Assembly: GCA_002435145.1 (NCBI GenBank)
Contig: DJLT01000041.1
Location: 1-60,644 of the forward strand
DNA length: 60,644 bases
Origin: Neptuniibacter sp. UBA6509
GTDB taxonomy: Bacteria; Pseudomonadota; Gammaproteobacteria; Pseudomonadales; Balneatricaceae
Direction: 5' to 3'
Shown here: positions 52,736 through 60,644 of the stretch, piece by piece
How positions within the stretch are numbered: the stretch's first letter is position 1
Layout: every line of letters begins with the position of its first letter
The notes under the pieces: generated by a model
The model's database searches: none
What the model was told of the DNA's origin: nothing
What the model saw: only the letters and a program-made list of their open reading frames with translations
Program-made: the position numbers and the translations under genes

Positions 52736-53362
52736 TTGTCTGATAAAACGGTGCGCCCTGAACTGTTTGTTGATCTGCTGAGTATTGTTCCCTCTGCGGT
52801 TTTAGACCTTAAGTATTTTAGCGGGGATAACTTTGTTGGCTTAAGGGTCAAAGGTTATCAGCGTGAAACATGCCTCATTACGTCCCCAGCTGCTCAAGCG
52901 CTTCTACGTGTACAGCATGCGTTAGCTGAATTTGGCCTAGGTATTAAAGTGTTTGATGCTTATCGTCCGCAGCAAGCGGTTGATCATTTTATAGATTGGT
53001 GTGAACAGTCTGAGCCTAGTGCGTCAAAAGCGCGTTTTTTTCCTAGCCTTCAGCGAGGGGAGTTGTTTAAACGGGGTTATTTGGTTCGTCATTCAAGCCA
53101 TAGCCGAGGGAGTACGGTTGATCTAACGCTCATTGATTTGCAGACGGGTGAAGAGCTTGAAATGGGGACAGAGTTTGACTTTTTTGGTCCTGAATCTTGG
53201 ATCGATAGCCAAGATATTTCTGCGCAGGCAAGAGCGAATAGAATGCTGTTGCAGACGCTTATGGTTCAATATGGTTTTATACCGTTTCAGCAGGAGTGGT
53301 GGCATTTCACCCTGCAAGATGAGCCGTATACGGATACCTATTTTGACTTTTTGGTGGATTGA
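52736..53362 (+). CDS. D-alanyl-D-alanine dipeptidase (VanX/DdpX family)
   Basis: 208 residues from a TTG at 52736, which has GGAG 6 nt upstream; another TTG at 52724 is also in frame, and no ATG fits. Metal ligands: His in SSHSRGSTVDLTL (HxxxxxxD form) and the EWWHF motif near the end. It has no signal peptide, so it would act in the cytosol, cleaving D-Ala-D-Ala for peptidoglycan recycling. It overlaps the GGDEF-EAL gene tail to tail by 25 bp. Confidence 0.8.
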   Translation: MSDKTVRPELFVDLLSIVPSAVLDLKYFSGDNFVGLRVKGYQRETCLITSPAAQALLRVQHALAEFGLGIKVFDAYRPQQAVDHFIDWCEQSEPSASKARFFPSLQRGELFKRGYLVRHSSHSRGSTVDLTLIDLQTGEELEMGTEFDFFGPESWIDSQDISAQARANRMLLQTLMVQYGFIPFQQEWWHFTLQDEPYTDTYFDFLVD

Positions 53363-56028
53363 TCTTGCCAATGTTTTTGTAGATTAAATGCAGATACCCA
53401 ATCTGGAATATGGTCAGCGGGCATAGGTTTTGCGATACCAAAGCCTTGGGCAAGGTTACATCCCATCTCTGATAAACAGTGGCCATGATCAGCACTTTCT
53501 ACTCCTTCAGCAATCACCTCTTTATTAAATGCATGTCCTAAATCGATAATGCTACCGACAATCGCTTTATCCTCTTCGTCCTCTAAAATATCCATTATAA
53601 AACTACGATCAATTTTAACGGTATCTGCAGGGAATTTTCGTAGATAGGTTAGTGATGAGTATCCGGTTCCGAAGTCGTCTAAAGCAAAGCGAACGCCTAA
53701 AAGACGACATTTCTTAATGATATCCGATGCAGCGCTTAGATCATCAAATGCGGTGGTTTCTAGTACTTCTAGCTCAATGGCTGCGGGTGGGACTTCAGGG
53801 TACTTTTCTAAAAGTGTTGAGAGGTGATTCGGGAATGATGAATCTTGTAAGTGTTGCGCAGAAATATTGATGCTGGTTGAAAGATCAAGACCGGCTAAAC
53901 GCCATATTCTCAAATGGGAAATCGCTTTTTCCATTACCCAGTTCCCTAGTGCAGTTGCAAGCTTAAGGTCGGTTATAAATGGCAGGAAGCTATTTGGTGG
54001 TAGCAAATTTAGTGTAGGGTGTTGCCAACGAATCAAGGCTTCAACACCATATACCTTGCCACTATGCATATTAATTTTGGGCTGGTAGTAAAGCACAAAC
54101 TCTTTTTTGCTTAGAGCGGCTGAAATCTCATCTTGAGTCCTATGTTGGTCTTGGGTTTGTTTATCAAAAGCAGGATCAAAGAAATGATACCGGTTTCGGC
54201 CTGTTTGTTTTGCAGTGTACATCGCTTGGTCAGCATGTCTTATCAGTGTGTCTGGATCTGCATTGTATTCAGGGTATACGGTGACACCGATACTGGCTGA
54301 AATAGTAAGTGTCTGTTGCCTAATAATAAATGGGTGAGAAAGCGTATCCAGAAGCTCTTCTAAAATCTTTCTGCATTGGGATGCGGAGGTTAGATTATTA
54401 AGTATGACAATAAACTCATCACCTCCTAACCTTGCAAGTTCGTTGTGCTTATCAAGTCGATTACGCATGCGCTTTGAGGCCTCTATAAGTAATAGATCAC
54501 CTGTATCATGTCCGTAGGTATCGTTAATCGGTTTGAACTCATCAAGATCAATATAGGCGATCGCCATCATTTCAGAGGGCTGGCAGTGACTGATAGCTGT
54601 TTTCAAACGATCAGATAAGAGCACTCTGTTAGGCAACTGAGTGAGTGCATCGAAGTGTGCCATTTTCTCTAGCTCATGCTGATGCTCTTTCAATTGGGTA
54701 ATGTCTGAAAAGATACTCACATAGTGAGTTGTTACACCATGTCTGTTTTGCACGGCCGCTATATTTAGTAACTCTGCATAGATCTCACCGGATTTATTAC
54801 GGTTCCAGACCTCTCCTCTCCAATGTTTGTCTTGGCGAAGGCTGTGCCACATAGAAGCAAAGAACTCTTCACTGTGGTGTCCTGACTTAAGCATGCTGGG
54901 CGTTTTACCAATCACTTCTTTTAATTTGTACCCAGTCAGGCTTTCAAAGGCTTGGTTTACATTAATAATCAGACCTTGATCATTAGTGATCATGATGCCT
55001 TCGCTTGCATGTTCGAAAACACTTGCAGCTAGGCTTAGCTGTTGCTCAGCTTGCTTACGTTCCGTAATGTCTGAAATTAGAGTGATGTATTGAAGCCCCC
55101 TATCTTCTGTCTGTAGGGTGCTCATGGCAATTTCAGAATGGATAAGTAAGCCTTGGTGATGCAAAAAACGGATCTCTACGCGTCTGTTCTTGCGTAGCGG
55201 TAGCTCTTGTTCTGTAAGCATATCGGCGAAGATGGATTGATCATCAGGGTGGATATATTTTGTGAGTGGTTCACTCTTTAATTCTGTTTCCAAGTAGCCC
55301 AGCATTTCGCATAAATACTGGTTTACTTGAATCCATTTCCCCTCAGAAGATATGAGAGCCATTCCAATTAAACCTAATTCAAAATAGCTTCTAAACAGTG
55401 ATTCGCTAGCTTTAACGGCTTGTTGAGCGTGATGTAGAGGGGTGATGTCTCTGCTAACGCCCAGCACACCGAATGTTTCATTGGTTGGGGAGCCCATCGG
55501 TGTTTTGATGGTTTCAAGCAGAACCCGTTGTCCATTACTAGCAAAGGTCACCCACTCCTGATTAACCAGAGGGGCGTTTGCATCTGTAACATCTTGGTCC
55601 TTTTCTCTAAAATGGTCGGCGAGCTCTTTGTCTACAAAATCGTAATCCGTTTTCCCTATGATCTGATGCTCTAGGGCACCAAAAAACTCTTCAAAACGGG
55701 AGTTGCAAGATACATAGACCCCCTCCATATCTTTAAGCCAGACAAGATCAGGAATATTGTTGATTAAAGAGGTTAAGAAAATCCGTTCGGTATTAAGACG
55801 TTCGTAAGCTAAGGCCCCCTTTAATGCGATGTAAAATTTATCGATAAGGGTTCTTAATTGACGTAATTCTCGTAGATTGAACGTTTCTTTGTCCCTTAGA
55901 AGGCGTATATAGCCTAATGAGCCTAAGCGAAACAGGGCGCAAAAACTGTTTGATGTATTTTCTTCTGCGGGATCTATTTGCCAATAGAGAGTCGGCACAG
56001 CTATAGAAGATAAAGCTCTCTTCATCAT
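53338..56028 (-). CDS. PAS-PAS-PAS-GGDEF-EAL protein (3' part of a frameshifted gene)
   Basis: 896 residues from the first in-frame ATG. After a partial sensor segment come three PAS domains (about 95-210, 215-335, 338-455), a GGDEF domain (LARLGGDEFIVIL; intact) and an EAL domain (EALIRW, DDFGTGYSSL, KIDRSFIMDI, AEGVES; catalytic residues present). No RxxD inhibitory site was found before GGDEF. Both synthesis and breakdown of c-di-GMP are possible. The real start is in another frame at 56296: from there to the stop is 2959 nt, one base more than a multiple of three. No membrane segment was seen. Confidence 0.85.
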   Translation of the reverse strand: MMKRALSSIAVPTLYWQIDPAEENTSNSFCALFRLGSLGYIRLLRDKETFNLRELRQLRTLIDKFYIALKGALAYERLNTERIFLTSLINNIPDLVWLKDMEGVYVSCNSRFEEFFGALEHQIIGKTDYDFVDKELADHFREKDQDVTDANAPLVNQEWVTFASNGQRVLLETIKTPMGSPTNETFGVLGVSRDITPLHHAQQAVKASESLFRSYFELGLIGMALISSEGKWIQVNQYLCEMLGYLETELKSEPLTKYIHPDDQSIFADMLTEQELPLRKNRRVEIRFLHHQGLLIHSEIAMSTLQTEDRGLQYITLISDITERKQAEQQLSLAASVFEHASEGIMITNDQGLIINVNQAFESLTGYKLKEVIGKTPSMLKSGHHSEEFFASMWHSLRQDKHWRGEVWNRNKSGEIYAELLNIAAVQNRHGVTTHYVSIFSDITQLKEHQHELEKMAHFDALTQLPNRVLLSDRLKTAISHCQPSEMMAIAYIDLDEFKPINDTYGHDTGDLLLIEASKRMRNRLDKHNELARLGGDEFIVILNNLTSASQCRKILEELLDTLSHPFIIRQQTLTISASIGVTVYPEYNADPDTLIRHADQAMYTAKQTGRNRYHFFDPAFDKQTQDQHRTQDEISAALSKKEFVLYYQPKINMHSGKVYGVEALIRWQHPTLNLLPPNSFLPFITDLKLATALGNWVMEKAISHLRIWRLAGLDLSTSINISAQHLQDSSFPNHLSTLLEKYPEVPPAAIELEVLETTAFDDLSAASDIIKKCRLLGVRFALDDFGTGYSSLTYLRKFPADTVKIDRSFIMDILEDEEDKAIVGSIIDLGHAFNKEVIAEGVESADHGHCLSEMGCNLAQGFGIAKPMPADHIPDWVSAFNLQKHWQDQSTKKSK

Positions 56029-56296
56029 CTATTTGCAGAGCCGGATGCTCAGGAGTTAGTTGTGAGTGTATCGCTCGACTGAAAGGGAAAGCGTACTGCA
56101 AATGGTATATAGGAAGCTCAGCTTCATGTTTCTCTGGTAGCGTCCAAATTCCAACATAATTGAGTTCGCTCTGGCGCATGAGCTCATTACCAAATTGGCG
56201 GCAAACTTCATTAGGATCAAGGCTATTTCCAACAGCAAGTGAAAGTTCATACATTCGCTGGAGGTCAGACCAAATATCAGCTGGATGATCAGTCAT
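55838..56296 (-). pseudogene. N-terminal sensor segment (GAF-like) of the GGDEF-EAL gene, other frame
   Basis: 152 codons from ATG at 56296 (MTDHPADIWSDLQRMYELSL). The start overlaps the FIST gene stop by 8 bp, the usual sign of an operon. Residues up to about IDDEESFIFYS look like the start of a GAF-like sensor domain. After that the frame gives Arg- and Ser-rich sequence unlike a domain, whereas the frame of the 896-residue ORF continues well (AVPTLYWQIDP). A single extra base near 55990-56030 would explain it; a sequencing error is also possible. Confidence 0.75.
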
Positions 56297-57398
56297 GAAA
56301 ACTACAGATGCCAAATGTTTTGTTATAAAAGTTGGTTGCTTTCTCGCCGTTGCTAGCAATTTCCCCGAGTGCTATGACGCCTTCTACCGTGACATCATCT
56401 TGTGCAGCCGACACTTTTTCGGAAACCTCTCTCAATTCGGTTGGGAATTGATGCCCTAGTGCTGCGGTTCTAGATAAACAGTCACAGACTAATATATGGC
56501 TGGATTTTTTTTCCATGGCTTCAGTTACGGCTTTGCTGGCGGCACTAATGAGCTGTTCCGGGGAACCTTTCACCATATAAAGTAGCGCGCCTTGAGGTAT
56601 ATCTGATAGGAACATAACATCGCCGTTGCCGCAGAGTGAAATAGGGTCTCTGACGACATCCTCTGATCCAGGGTGCTCTACCGCAAAGGGGTATCTTGGT
56701 GTGACATCTTTGTAGAAACGGTCGGGCGGGGTCGCTCTCAGTTTTTCGGGCAGGGCATCTCGGTAGGCTGTCTCTGCATCTTCCCAATCGAGTTCATGTA
56801 CTACATTCCCTGTGGTTCTACTCGCAACAAACGGGCCTCTGTGTCTCTCCCATCCATGTTGAGCAATGCAGCTGCTTGTCTGATCAATAATTGCGATGAC
56901 GGCACTATGGCTTTCACAGCCCCAATTGCCAAATACCGCATGTCCTAGTGTTACATCGTTATTCCCCGCGCCCGCGCCAAAGTAACTACAGCGCTGATTG
57001 TAACGGTTATAAACATGATGGAGAAAATCATCGATGCCTGTTGATAGGCAATCAATAAAAGTTAAGCAGGTTGATCCTGTTTCAGGAATGTCTTTATAAG
57101 CAGGTAAGTTTTTTTTGATATCACTTTGATTCGTTGGAAGAGATATGAGGGTTGGAGGCGACAGACAGCGTACTTTCCTAATGATGGCGCCACTGTTTAG
57201 CATTCTCTTTCCATGAATGAGTCCTGGGAATATAGCGCCAAAAAAACGAATGCCGAGATTGTCTAGATGAGTGATGATCTCTTCTAGCTGAGGTTGGTGT
57301 TTGTCAGAGAGTAGTATTAGCCAGTACTCATTAGTAGAGAGTGGCTCTTTTTGAATCGCGCTTGTTAACTCGTTGTAGTGATCAAATGAGATATACAT
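56289..57398 (-). CDS. FIST-domain signal protein
   Basis: 369 residues. FIST_N (about 20-200; GIRFFGAIFPGLIHGKRMLN, YFGAGAGNNDVTLGHAVFGN) and FIST_C (about 205-350; DVMFLSDIPQGALLYMVKG, SHILVCDCLSRTAALG). FIST proteins are thought to sense small molecules, perhaps amino acids, and often pair with GGDEF/EAL or histidine kinase partners. First gene of the two-gene operon with the GGDEF-EAL gene; no signal peptide. Confidence 0.85.
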   Translation of the reverse strand: MYISFDHYNELTSAIQKEPLSTNEYWLILLSDKHQPQLEEIITHLDNLGIRFFGAIFPGLIHGKRMLNSGAIIRKVRCLSPPTLISLPTNQSDIKKNLPAYKDIPETGSTCLTFIDCLSTGIDDFLHHVYNRYNQRCSYFGAGAGNNDVTLGHAVFGNWGCESHSAVIAIIDQTSSCIAQHGWERHRGPFVASRTTGNVVHELDWEDAETAYRDALPEKLRATPPDRFYKDVTPRYPFAVEHPGSEDVVRDPISLCGNGDVMFLSDIPQGALLYMVKGSPEQLISAASKAVTEAMEKKSSHILVCDCLSRTAALGHQFPTELREVSEKVSAAQDDVTVEGVIALGEIASNGEKATNFYNKTFGICSFHD

Positions 57399-57731
57399 TT
57401 CACACCTTTTTTCTTTTTATTTTTGATTTGTGTGTCGATAGATAACAGTTTGCCGCTTGGTATCATGAAATTCCACTGTTTTTATAGGTCTTTTGTTTAG
57501 TAGTGGGTAGTCTTAAAGCGGTTAGTAGCGATTCAATCTAAATTTAGAATTTGAATAGGGTTGCAACTTTTTCGATTTCGGCTAAAAATGAACTTACCCC
57601 AAAAAACGTATGTCCCACCTAAATTGCCGTAGTGTGGTTAACGCTGTTATGGCTAAGGTATAGTTCTCTGCAATTTGAGGCGGTCTGCTATTGCTTCAAT
57701 CGTCCCATCTTGAAGTTATAAGGGATTTAAT
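57399..57731. other. Divergent intergenic region between FIST and GTPase genes
   Basis: 333 bp, AT-rich. It holds a 26-bp palindrome-like element at 57531-57556 and the AAGGGA binding site of the GTPase gene. No clear -10/-35 pair and no small gene were identified. Confidence 0.5.
57531..57556. promoter_or_regulatory. Palindromic element between FIST and GTPase genes
   Basis: A perfect 12-bp palindrome TCTAAATTTAGA (57537-57548) flanked by ATTCAA and TTGAAT arms (outer arms offset by 2 bp). It lies midway between two divergent operons, the usual place of a shared operator. No regulator of the two operons is encoded in the window. Confidence 0.45.
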
Positions 57732-58688
57732 ATGACTGATTATAAAGTTCTGTTCACTGGTTCTGTTTGTTCCGGAAAAACCACTGCAATTCGTTCATTA
57801 AGTGATATAGAAACAGTGGATACGGATGCAAGTGTTAGCGATTCAGCTATTCGCCGTAAGAAAAAAACCACCATCGCAATGGATTATGGTGTTTTAGATC
57901 TGTCAGATAGCGCTAGACTTCATCTGTATGGCACGCCCGGTCAGGAACGTTTTAAGTTCATGTGGGAACTTATGATGAGCGATCTAGTGCATGATGCCGA
58001 AGCATTGGTTTTGTTAGTGGACAACACGCGAACTGATCCTTTCAAAGATATTCGTTTTTATGTCGAAGAGTTTAGGGATTTTATTGTTCGTCGCCGCCTG
58101 ATTATTGCTGTGACCCATGCTGATGAGCAAGCTGAGCCTGACCATGATTATTATATGGAAGAGCTCAAATCTATGGGCTTATTTACCACGGTTCTTTTTA
58201 TTGATGCTAGGGATCCGGCCTCAGTGTTAACCATCGTGAGCGAGCTGGTAGGTCATCGTGAAAAGAATATTGACTGGGATGGATTGGGAAAGCGTTTAGA
58301 GGTCAATAGTACGATGCCTGAAGAGGGAGGCGAGGTTGAAGCGTTAACCTCTGATATCAATAACGTTTCATTGCTTGATGCAGCTATGAATACCCGCGGT
58401 ATTACCGGGGCTATACATCTTGGAGCTGAACGTGATGTGCTGAGCTCTAATATCAGTAATAAGCAGAATAAAGAGCTATTACGTTCTATGATTAATCTAG
58501 TGACGGCTTTGGAAAAGAAAGCGGCTTTTATGGGGAGTATCGATGATCTGGTTTTATGTGGTCCGCAGCAGGAAACACTCTCTGTCTTTGTAGAGGAAAA
58601 GCAAGCGCTTGGTTTGTGTTCTGAAAAGGAGTTAAGTATTAATGTTGTTAAGCAGCAAGCGGCAGATCTTTTGCAGTGGAGCCAGTAA
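57732..58688 (+). CDS. MglA/CvnD-like small GTPase with a C-terminal LC7-like domain, copy 1
   Basis: 318 residues. G1 GSVCSGKTT (10-18), switch Thr in KKKTTIAMDYG (43-53), G3 as GTPGQERF (67-74) with Gly in place of Asp of DxxG, as in COG2229-type GTPases, G4 THAD (128-131), and DARDP for G5. After about residue 210 comes an added domain (LLDAAMNTRGITGAIHLG, DDLVLCGPQQETLSVFV, VKQQAADLLQWS) with the strand-helix pattern of Roadblock/LC7. AAGGGA site upstream. Its stop overlaps the next gene (TAATG). Similar to a bacterial conservon but without kinase. Confidence 0.82.
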   Translation: MTDYKVLFTGSVCSGKTTAIRSLSDIETVDTDASVSDSAIRRKKKTTIAMDYGVLDLSDSARLHLYGTPGQERFKFMWELMMSDLVHDAEALVLLVDNTRTDPFKDIRFYVEEFRDFIVRRRLIIAVTHADEQAEPDHDYYMEELKSMGLFTTVLFIDARDPASVLTIVSELVGHREKNIDWDGLGKRLEVNSTMPEEGGEVEALTSDINNVSLLDAAMNTRGITGAIHLGAERDVLSSNISNKQNKELLRSMINLVTALEKKAAFMGSIDDLVLCGPQQETLSVFVEEKQALGLCSEKELSINVVKQQAADLLQWSQ

Positions 58689-59038
58689 TGAGTGATTTGC
58701 TAGGATCGGTAGATAAAGAAGGGCTTGTTCTCTGTAGCTGTGTGCTCAAAGGAAAGCAGGTTGTGACGTCCTCCTTTGGCAAAAAAGTGCGCAACCATGA
58801 AACTATAGCTAAGCAAACTTTTAGCTATATATTTTTGAATGTCTCGAAGCATAAAAGTAAACATAATGAAGCTCACCTTGAGATCGGCGATAAAAGGCTA
58901 AGTGGCTTTTTATTAAAAGCAGATACTGTTTTAGTTTGTTTATCGGATAAAGAAACAAGTGTTACTCAAGTAAGGGCGCATATTAAACAGATACAAAGTA
59001 AAGTATTACAGGCTGAAGTTGAACGGATGTTAGCCTAA
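58688..59038 (+). CDS. Small Roadblock/LC7-like partner protein, copy 1
   Basis: 116 residues from ATG 58688 (MSDLLGSVDKEGLVLCSCVL). Predicted pattern strand-strand-helix (EGLVLCSCVLKG, KQVVTSSFG, HETIAKQTFSYIFLNV), then two strands (EAHLEIGDKRLSGFLL, DTVLVCLSD) and a C-terminal helix, which suits a Roadblock/longin-like fold. I do not recognise a named family. It overlaps the GTPase gene by one base and probably works with it, as MglB does with MglA. Confidence 0.6.
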   Translation: MSDLLGSVDKEGLVLCSCVLKGKQVVTSSFGKKVRNHETIAKQTFSYIFLNVSKHKSKHNEAHLEIGDKRLSGFLLKADTVLVCLSDKETSVTQVRAHIKQIQSKVLQAEVERMLA

Positions 59039-59272
59039 AGCTATACCCTAATCTTTCCTTATTGAATTTCTATACTCAATATATTCAGCCTTTATTCGAC
59101 TTATTCTGCATATCATTCCCACTGCTCGCATGCGATAAACCTTGTTAACTAAAGGGCTAATAGGGTTTCTTGGTATTTTCTCTATGATTTTCTATAAGTT
59201 TTTTTATTTTGTTTAGTGGTAGCCGTCTACACTGAATAGATATGATTTTCTTGTAGATTAAGGAATGTATGA
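59039..59272 (+). other. Spacer between module copies
   Basis: 234 bp, AT-rich (long T runs near 59190-59210). A TAAGGA binding site for the second GTPase lies near 59260. No terminator hairpin or gene is evident, so copy 2 may be read through from copy 1 or have its own promoter. The palindrome upstream of copy 1 is not repeated here. Confidence 0.4.
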
Positions 59273-60229
59273 ATGAAGGATTATAAGATCCTGTTTACAG
59301 GATCAGTTTGTTCAGGGAAAACAACAGCAATACGCTCGTTAAGTGATATTGAAACACTTGATACCGATGCGCAAGCGAGTGACGTGACTGTTAGACGAAA
59401 AAAAAATACCACAATCGCAATGGATTATGGTGTTTTAGATCTCACTAAAGAAGCTCGTGTGCATCTTTATGGAACGCCCGGTCAGGAACGCTTTCGCTTT
59501 ATGTGGGAGATGCTGGCTTGTGAGTTTGCTCATGATGCTATCGGCATGGTGTTGATGGTTGATAATACCCGTAAAGACCCTTTTAGGGATATTCGTTTTT
59601 ATGCAAAAGAGTTTAGTGATTATTTGCAGAAACGAAGGTTAATTATTGCGGTTACACATGCGGATGTTGAAGCTAACCCCGATTACCAGAGCTATTTAAA
59701 AGCGATTAAAAATTTAGGCATCATGACAACCGTCATGTTTATTGATGCGCGAGATCCTCGTGCTGTTTTAGGTATTGTTGAGGAGTTAATATCTGCCGTA
59801 GAGCGAGATATCAATTGGGATCAAGTTTGTGAACGCTTGCTTGATAATAATGGTTTTTCACTCGATTTTTACAAACCACTTTATGAAGAAACTTTGTTGG
59901 ATGCCGCAATGAATAAACGAGGTGTTCTAGGTGCTATTCATCTGGGCGATCAACAAGAGGTGCTGTGCTCAAATATAGATGATAAATCGACGAAGTCTCT
60001 TATGTGTAATCTTGATCGTCTTTCGAGTGCTATTTCAGACAAAGCGAGCTTTTTGGGCGCGGTTAACAATATTGTCATTGCAGGGGCGAATGTAGATACC
60101 TTGTCGGTTTTTAATGATCAAAATCAGTCACTGTGTTTACGTTCTGATAAAGATATTTCGTTACCGGTACTGAAACAGCAGGCCAGTGATTTACTGCAGT
60201 GGAGTATAGAAAATGACTATCTGGCATGA
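59273..60229 (+). CDS. MglA/CvnD-like small GTPase with a C-terminal LC7-like domain, copy 2
   Basis: 318 residues, the same length as copy 1. Residues 9-28 (TGSVCSGKTTAIRSLSDIET) are identical, yet 11 of those 20 codons use a different synonymous codon. G1, switch Thr, GTPGQERF, THAD and DARDP are all kept. The linker at about 195-212 and the start of the LC7-like domain are the most divergent parts. It ends SIENDYLA and overlaps the next gene by 17 bp. Confidence 0.82.
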   Translation: MKDYKILFTGSVCSGKTTAIRSLSDIETLDTDAQASDVTVRRKKNTTIAMDYGVLDLTKEARVHLYGTPGQERFRFMWEMLACEFAHDAIGMVLMVDNTRKDPFRDIRFYAKEFSDYLQKRRLIIAVTHADVEANPDYQSYLKAIKNLGIMTTVMFIDARDPRAVLGIVEELISAVERDINWDQVCERLLDNNGFSLDFYKPLYEETLLDAAMNKRGVLGAIHLGDQQEVLCSNIDDKSTKSLMCNLDRLSSAISDKASFLGAVNNIVIAGANVDTLSVFNDQNQSLCLRSDKDISLPVLKQQASDLLQWSIENDYLA

Positions 60230-60542
60230 GATGCAAGAAGAGGGATTAATCTTGTATGGATGTTTTTTACAAGGAGGAGAGATTAAAGAATCCACTTTCC
60301 CTTCTGAATATAGAAAACATTTGGCGGTTGCTAAGCAGTCATTGGTATATATCTTTAAAAGTGCAGCCAAGAGTGCACAAGGTTATGATGAGACGCATAT
60401 GGAAATTGGAGATAATTTATTTAGTGGTTTCCAGTTAGATAATAATACCATTCTTGTTTTTTTAAGTGAGCATGATGCGAATACGTTACATATTCGTCAA
60501 TTTATTGAAGATAATAAAAAGCGTTTTATGGATCTGCTATAA
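60213..60542 (+). CDS. Small Roadblock/LC7-like partner protein, copy 2
   Basis: 109 residues, homologous to copy 1: shared pattern EEGLILYGCFLQGGEI, HLAVAKQSLVYIF, ETHMEIGDNLFSGFQL and NTILVFLSE. ATG at 60213 lies inside the end of GTPase copy 2. The last 102 bp of the window hold no terminator or gene that I can recognise, so it is unclear whether further copies follow. Confidence 0.6.
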   Translation: MTIWHEMQEEGLILYGCFLQGGEIKESTFPSEYRKHLAVAKQSLVYIFKSAAKSAQGYDETHMEIGDNLFSGFQLDNNTILVFLSEHDANTLHIRQFIEDNKKRFMDLL

Positions 60543-60644
60543 ATGATTTTTTTACTCAATAAAAAGTGGGGAAGCCTACGCCCCTGCTGAATTTACGGTG
60601 TCGTTTCAAGTCAGTTTTATACTGCTTATATTTCTTTTCTGTTT

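Follow-up and report, generated by a model that had tools for sequence, protein, structure and literature searches.

Tandem copies of a Neptuniibacter signalling module with MglA-lineage GTPases fused to a Roadblock-like domain

Ras-like GTPases fused to Roadblock domains are known from the eukaryotic Rags and from Asgard archaea. In Rag and Gtr GTPases, a G domain is followed by a C-terminal Roadblock domain, and these proteins work with separate Roadblock proteins (Ragulator). For Asgard archaea, one account (PMC10933270) describes GTPase domains fused to Roadblock domains, with many paralogs per genome, and places GTPases with Roadblock or longin fusions close to Rag or Arf. Group 3 MglA-family systems of beta- and gammaproteobacteria were described by Wuichet and Sogaard-Andersen (2014; PMC4316618), whose survey left out sequences longer than 240 amino acids (aa). 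Here we analysed a 60,644-nucleotide (nt) stretch of Neptuniibacter sp. UBA6509 (contig DJLT01000041.1; hereafter the window), which carries two old tandem copies, A and B, of a two-gene signalling module. It is well supported, moderately so for the fused domain, that each copy encodes an MglA-lineage GTPase–Roadblock fusion and a stand-alone Roadblock protein, i.e. the layout known from Rags and Asgard archaea on an MglA-lineage bacterial GTPase. We found no description of the module in any paper when searching the open-licence literature.

Actinobacterial conservons (CvnA-D) and Myxococcus xanthus MglA/MglB also pair a Ras-like GTPase with a Roadblock protein, but their GTPases are single-domain, unlike the window fusions. 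No CvnA-type histidine kinase or CvnC was seen on inspecting open reading frame (ORF) maps around the module in the window and its relatives, where a family search was not run on every neighbour. By analogy, the nearest experimental lead on function that we found is the Group 3 system of Snodgrassella. There, the report describes a Group 3 mglA to which two mglB genes are coupled, and an orphan mglB far from the locus, whose mutation was linked to gut colonisation and for which type IV pili were the proposed target (PMC11112851).

Architecture of the fused GTPases and their partners

An earlier sequence-only reading of this DNA had noted two adjacent units, each a GTPase gene with a small partner gene, and we confirmed the ORFs (318/116 and 318/109 residues). 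GTPase A lies at 57732-58688 and GTPase B at 59273-60229, both on the plus strand, as are all module features below. In each, residues 1-180 form the G domain (57732..58271 in A, 59273..59812 in B). The motifs of A are GSVCSGKTT (G1), KTT (G2), GTPGQ (G3), THAD (G4) and DAR (G5); B retains every G motif and matches ATP_bind_1 (5e-11). Both copies have the Group 3 motifs YGTPGQE in G3 and KTT in G2, with threonine replacing arginine, and both have a G4 without lysine (THAD) and DAR in G5. Across 37 aligned fused-GTPase rows, G67, P69, G70, Q71, T46 and T47 were invariant and T68 nearly so; G5 varied to DVR in two B orthologs and to DGR in one clade of genus g8. The G3 GTPGQ, the G2 threonine, the lysine-free G4, the G5 DAR and the Roadblock partners resemble Group 3 systems as portrayed in PMC4316618. 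The window GTPases differ from the single-domain proteins of 150-240 aa in that survey by their 318-aa length and second folded domain, a fused Roadblock-like one, and also by duplication and a location away from the operon described below.

In GTPase A, a variable linker (residues 181-213, 58272..58370; mean ortholog identity 47%) has a predicted local distance difference test (pLDDT) score <50 at residues 194-211. It leads into a C-terminal Roadblock-like domain (residues 214-318 plus stop, 58371..58688), assigned from AlphaFold2 topology and profile matches. The AlphaFold2 model gave the order a-bb-a-bbb-a for this domain, which we take to be the Roadblock fold. When a family profile of the fused GTPases was compared with the PDB, 14 of the 24 sequences listed up to E 1 were Roadblock/LC7 proteins (best E 0.0023). 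The Pfam family Robl_LC7 matched nine of 37 fused-family members (best E 0.00085), the window copy itself being unmatched. By hhalign, the C-terminal domain resembled RB122, a protein of the operon discussed below, with P 0.0004 and a probability of just 36%, and the partner only weakly (P 0.034, probability 1.5%). Together, these results moderately support a Roadblock-like C-terminal domain. In GTPase B, alignment to A delimits the corresponding domain, which has a longer tail (residues 208-318 plus stop, 59894..60229). The preceding linker (residues 181-207, 59813..59893), which includes NGFSLDFYKPLYEE, is conserved, with 76% mean ortholog identity.

Partner A (58688..59038) starts within an overlap with the GTPase A stop and has 116 aa from its ATG, or 120 aa from an alternative GTG 12 nt upstream. 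Its model shows the a-bb-a-bbb-a Roadblock fold and, in a structural comparison (VIA-align, used for all models), aligns to Rag C-terminal regions and Ragulator subunits. Partner B (60213..60542; 109 aa) shares 17 nt with the GTPase B gene and is assigned the same fold through homology to partner A. No accepted family for either partner emerged from profile searches of Pfam, NCBIfam, PADLOC and the PDB. Robl_LC7 matched neither the window partners nor the homologs scanned, and a partner profile had no sequence match among PDB chains; partner identity was settled by structure. The partners of g8 and g13 (L057-L063, L066) are longer (208-254 aa), with an extra C-terminal region, and the three that were scanned gave no accepted Pfam match.

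Overall, we hold with high confidence that the module combines a Group 3-like G domain of the MglA lineage, a fused C-terminal Roadblock-like domain and a Roadblock partner. This resembles the Rag/Gtr arrangement in having a G domain, a moderately supported C-terminal Roadblock-like domain and separate Roadblock partners, but the G domain is of the MglA type (GTPGQ). At E 0.1, neither window GTPase nor partner had Gtr1_RagA (PF04670) among its matches, and the best scanned homolog (L060) reached 18.2 bits, under the cut-off of 22. Since its G domain is of the MglA type, the window GTPase is Rag-like in layout and is not a Rag. It shares the GTPase–Roadblock fusion with the Asgard proteins but is bacterial and lies among MglA-lineage GTPases, and the two fusions probably arose independently.

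Age and divergence of the two copies

GTPases A and B are identical at 179 of 312 aligned residues (57%), with dN 0.367 and dS 3.37 by the Nei–Gojobori method (NG86), the latter saturated. Residues 9-28 are identical while 11 of 20 codons differ, all at synonymous third positions, exactly as the sequence-only reading had reported; over the whole proteins, 93 of the 172 identical residues other than methionine and tryptophan are encoded by different codons. The equal length of 318 residues is real and yet partly coincidence, as the alignment contains 12 gap positions (B has the shorter linker and the longer tail). The partners have diverged further (37/109 identical, 34%; dS not computable). 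GTPase A was the sole other strong match to GTPase B in the window genome (E 2e-117), and a third match (E 0.275) was noise. A look for a third copy past 60644 had been suggested. There the contig runs on as a stretch of N followed by a gene that, from its sequence, we take to be clpB, and the search of the window genome found no such copy.

A search of 96 genomes with GTPase B matched 26. The five named records retrieved with GTPase B were all Neptuniibacter (best AP025763, 89% identical). We refer to G001-G010 and the window genome, which is the source Neptuniibacter genome, as the genus (11 genomes); all genomes are drafts of varying completeness. Copy A occurs in all 11 and copy B in eight, always alongside A, and clpB follows the module in every one. 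The culturable N. caesariensis MED92 carries the two copies. In the three genomes with A alone (G001, G005 and G007), partner A and clpB lie just ~140-175 nt apart, which leaves no remnant of B there. The sequence-only reading had called the duplication old, and the trees bear this out. B forms one clade apart from A across the eight genomes (support 100/99 and 100/100 in two trees), with stems of 0.57 and 0.93 changes per site, respectively, and an approximately unbiased (AU) test disfavoured a duplication inside a nine-genome subgroup (p 0.028). Partner B is likewise one clade (100/100), with a stem of 2.04. AU tests gave p 0.20 for all genus copies as one clade and p 0.12 for A as one clade, and the duplication may or may not predate the genus. 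G005 and G001 are the earliest branches of the ClpB tree, in which G007 groups with the B-bearing G008 (81/88), as it also does in GTPase A trees; B was therefore probably lost at least once.

Purifying selection on both copies, also proposed earlier, was upheld over the full genes, where dN/dS was far below 1. Codon-model omega in the eight two-copy genomes was 0.031 for A, 0.022 for B, 0.023 for partner A and 0.069 for partner B, with dS saturated across most of the tree; for G002/G004, a pair without saturation, the values were 0.052, 0.034, 0 and 0.110, respectively. The further suggestion that neither copy is decaying must be tempered: B is missing from three of 11 genus genomes and A from none. 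Relatives do show degraded copies (or misassembled ones), though the instance seen concerns a different tandem pair: in G055 (genus g8; L059 6684-9654), one GTPase is cut to a 122-aa C-terminal fragment beside an intact neighbour.

The claim that A and B have separate jobs received indirect support, from the long B stem, from 24 alignment columns (two with a gap) fixed differently in eight A versus eight B sequences, and from a linker conserved in B and not in A. Five single-copy orthologs (G001, G005 and three from genus g5, with G007 left uncounted) have 67-81% identity with A and 53-56% with B. We consider distinct jobs for the two copies probable. It is well supported that the A and B units were co-inherited and diverged asymmetrically.

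An operon with an empty GTPase slot

The sequence-only reading had left out the Roadblock fusion, the Roadblock partner and an operon lacking its GTPase. The only Roadblock gene above cut-off in the window genome is on another contig, in the run RR459 - X210 - RB122 - PAS154. RR459 had no Pfam match, and the C-terminal half of X210 is Roadblock-like, resembling the conservon protein CvnB5 (3leq, E 0.0002). At 30 of 30 loci examined in the family to which Neptuniibacter belongs (taken from 33 family genomes with X210), RR459 directly precedes X210 with a 13-98 nt gap and no GTPase occupies the slot; RB122 was detected at all 30 and PAS154 at 27. G014 has the same RR459-X210 arrangement without GTPase, giving 31 family loci read in all. 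Outside the family, a single-domain GTPase lies between RR459 and X210 in four of four order loci with RR459, X210 and RB122. A GTPase is beside X210 in 18/18 class loci, and all 17 that reach RR459 have it in the slot; the sample is biased, as it consists of the loci that scored best among 67 matching genomes, and the remaining locus starts near its contig end. In G797, which belongs to another family, a GTPase likewise occupies the operon slot (the PAS gene was not seen on the 5.7-kb contig), and a fused module is present as well. In two g108 genomes GTPase and X210 are adjacent with the rest of the operon missing. The empty GTPase slot of this operon is thus well supported as a feature of the family. 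Beside the operon in the window genome (contig C2, L119 361-7010) lie genes for NiFe hydrogenase subunits, a Rieske-PAS-GGDEF-EAL protein and a phosphonate-binding-type protein.

The nearest single-domain GTPases found outside the family were those of this operon, which is conserved in Gammaproteobacteria and in which RR459 and the GTPase are followed by two Roadblock-type proteins and a PAS protein. Its order outside the family fits the Group 3 description of a conserved protein, MglA and two Roadblock-type proteins in PMC4316618. In a G-domain tree with 18 fused rows (from ten selected genomes or the window; L064, L066, L070, L073 and L094 left out), the fused GTPases fell in a clade of 48 rows (99/95) that also took in each of the 25 operon GTPases and two others. 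Trees with all 37 or with 35 fused rows agreed that the fused GTPases group with operon GTPases. Group 3 kinship in these trees is judged through operon GTPases with Group 3-like gene order, not through published Group 3 sequences. Two single-domain GTPases of g8 (L065 7768-8367, L067 7829-8437) group within the fused clade, as though the Roadblock domain had been lost. In the class sample, five matches (G495, G725, G550, G663 and G603) extend into the C-domain only by reading through stop codons and may be unfused neighbours. In the window, the Roadblock partner adjoins the GTPase, and RR459 is on another contig with no neighbouring GTPase, which departs from Group 3 adjacency.

Fused GTPase and operon also co-occur. 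Among 116 family genomes, X210 was present in 39 of 39 with a fused GTPase versus 23 of 77 others (p 5e-15, ignoring relatedness); the 39 remained from 42 GTPase matches after three were dropped: G030 and G043, whose GTPases are single-domain, and G050, where the match had a stop and covered the C-domain only. Within g16 alone, the counts were 10/10 versus 3/7 (p 0.015). Descent from the operon GTPase lineage, with displacement of the GTPase, is likely. Action of the module in trans with the operon, for which the co-occurrence of fused GTPase and X210 is the basis, has slightly less than an even chance.

We somewhat favour the view that the module is the displaced and rewired GTPase of the RR459-X210 operon, later duplicated and still serving it. 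A copy of an operon-lineage GTPase would have been fused to a Roadblock domain and then moved, with G797 still having both states. In the family, the operon's own GTPase would have been lost while copies of the fused module increased in number, giving Neptuniibacter its tandem pair next to clpB. The fused Roadblock domain and the partner could form a built-in dimer, which would position the G domain and regulate it in a manner like that of a GTPase-activating protein (GAP) or guanine nucleotide exchange factor (GEF), by analogy with MglB acting on MglA. The PAS and Roadblock proteins would set GTP loading, and this would change binding to RR459, which from its operon position we equate with the receiver-like, winged-helix protein known from published Group 3 systems; the module proteins would still serve the operon proteins in trans. 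Copy A would retain the older role, and B, only ever present with A, would be a paralog that diverged faster and either has an input of its own or modifies A. It is unlikely, though conceivable, that A and B constitute a bacterial counterpart of the Rag-type heterodimer, with a putative C-terminal Roadblock contact, a Roadblock partner each and trans action on a GTPase-less operon; if so, bacteria would have arrived independently at the Rag/Ragulator design.

Several points weigh against this explanation. Across genera, the X210 association is modest (5/5 versus 4/11, p 0.034), and in the 116-genome count the operon is represented by X210, whose neighbours were read in 31 family loci. Of 62 X210-bearing family genomes, 23 have no fused GTPase, and 21 of these lack any match to the GTPase profile, so the operon can exist without one. 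In the genomes surveyed, module and operon are on different contigs or >800 kb apart. The C-terminal Roadblock call draws on weak sequence scores and one topology, and all 50 listed structural matches of the GTPase model cover the G domain; as the G domain fills that list, it neither supports nor opposes a Roadblock domain. Long branches weaken the deep placements, and the split between A and B is loosely placed. In nine g72 genomes and G105 (L186-L195), X210 persists while RR459, the GTPase, RB122 and PAS154 are all missing. At nine of these ten loci, the lone X210 is preceded by a gene weakly like the operon's upstream gene.

The fused module might instead be a self-contained switch whose link to the operon is historical, the operon working without a GTPase. 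We regard this as a serious possibility of somewhat less than even probability: the X210 genomes without a fused GTPase, the distance between module and operon and the Roadblock pair that the module brings with it would all be expected, but the presence of X210 in every fused-GTPase family genome and the difference within g16 would not. If A and B were redundant dosage copies without separate roles, B would be dispensable, consistent with its absence without remnant from three of 11 genomes (including G007, grouped with the B-bearing G008) and with the retention of every G motif in A and B. Dosage copies would, however, be expected to remain alike, and the long B stem, the 24 fixed column differences, the linker conserved specifically in B, the closeness of the five single-copy orthologs to A and an omega for B as low as that of A make this improbable.

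In-place duplication must also be set against arrival of B by transfer, with a diverged module landing beside A. Fused modules do occupy different sites in different genera, and the A-type modules of g5 (L050-L052), at a different site, fall among the Neptuniibacter A copies although ClpB places g5 elsewhere. A transfer of A between Neptuniibacter and g5 is only suggested by this, as an AU test retained g5 outside the Neptuniibacter A clade (p 0.32). No sampled genome has B without A or B at another site, and B groups with the A copies of Neptuniibacter and g5 before any other fused GTPase, so we consider acquisition of B by transfer quite improbable. As the fused GTPases group with single-domain operon GTPases, the origin of the fusion can be traced through living genomes: operon with GTPase, operon with GTPase and module (G797), and GTPase-less operon with module. 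The tandem pair and its single-copy relatives make it directly testable whether such GTPases act as asymmetric pairs, and the empty-slot operon offers a natural test of Group 3 systems with and without their switch.

Spacer and flanking genes

A FIST-domain gene and a PAS-GGDEF-EAL gene lie at 53338-57398 on the minus strand, divergent from the module. We rejected them as module members, since they are at the site in just three of the ten genomes with the upstream side covered (window, G006 and G008; the contig of G007 ends there). The start of the GGDEF-EAL gene may lie in a 173-aa ORF that overlaps it in a different frame (55838-56359), so the gene may be frameshifted or missequenced; it encodes 896 aa in the window versus 998 in G006.

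The spacer between units A and B (59039..59272) contains short blocks common to three close relatives: TTCGACTTATTC and GCATGCGATAAA (59095-59139) recur in the spacers ahead of unit B in the window, G006, G002 and G003. A sigma-28 promoter ahead of unit B was considered but lacked support, as the GCATGCGATAAA block occurs in four of seven aligned spacers but mismatches the full GCCGATAA upstream of a flagellin gene in the window genome. Scanning 57390-60644 gave six promoter-like sites versus 9.6 in shuffled sequence and six terminator-like sites versus 2.4, with none of either between the units. Five of the terminator-like sites are intragenic, and the sixth (60571-60584, minus strand) lies past partner B.

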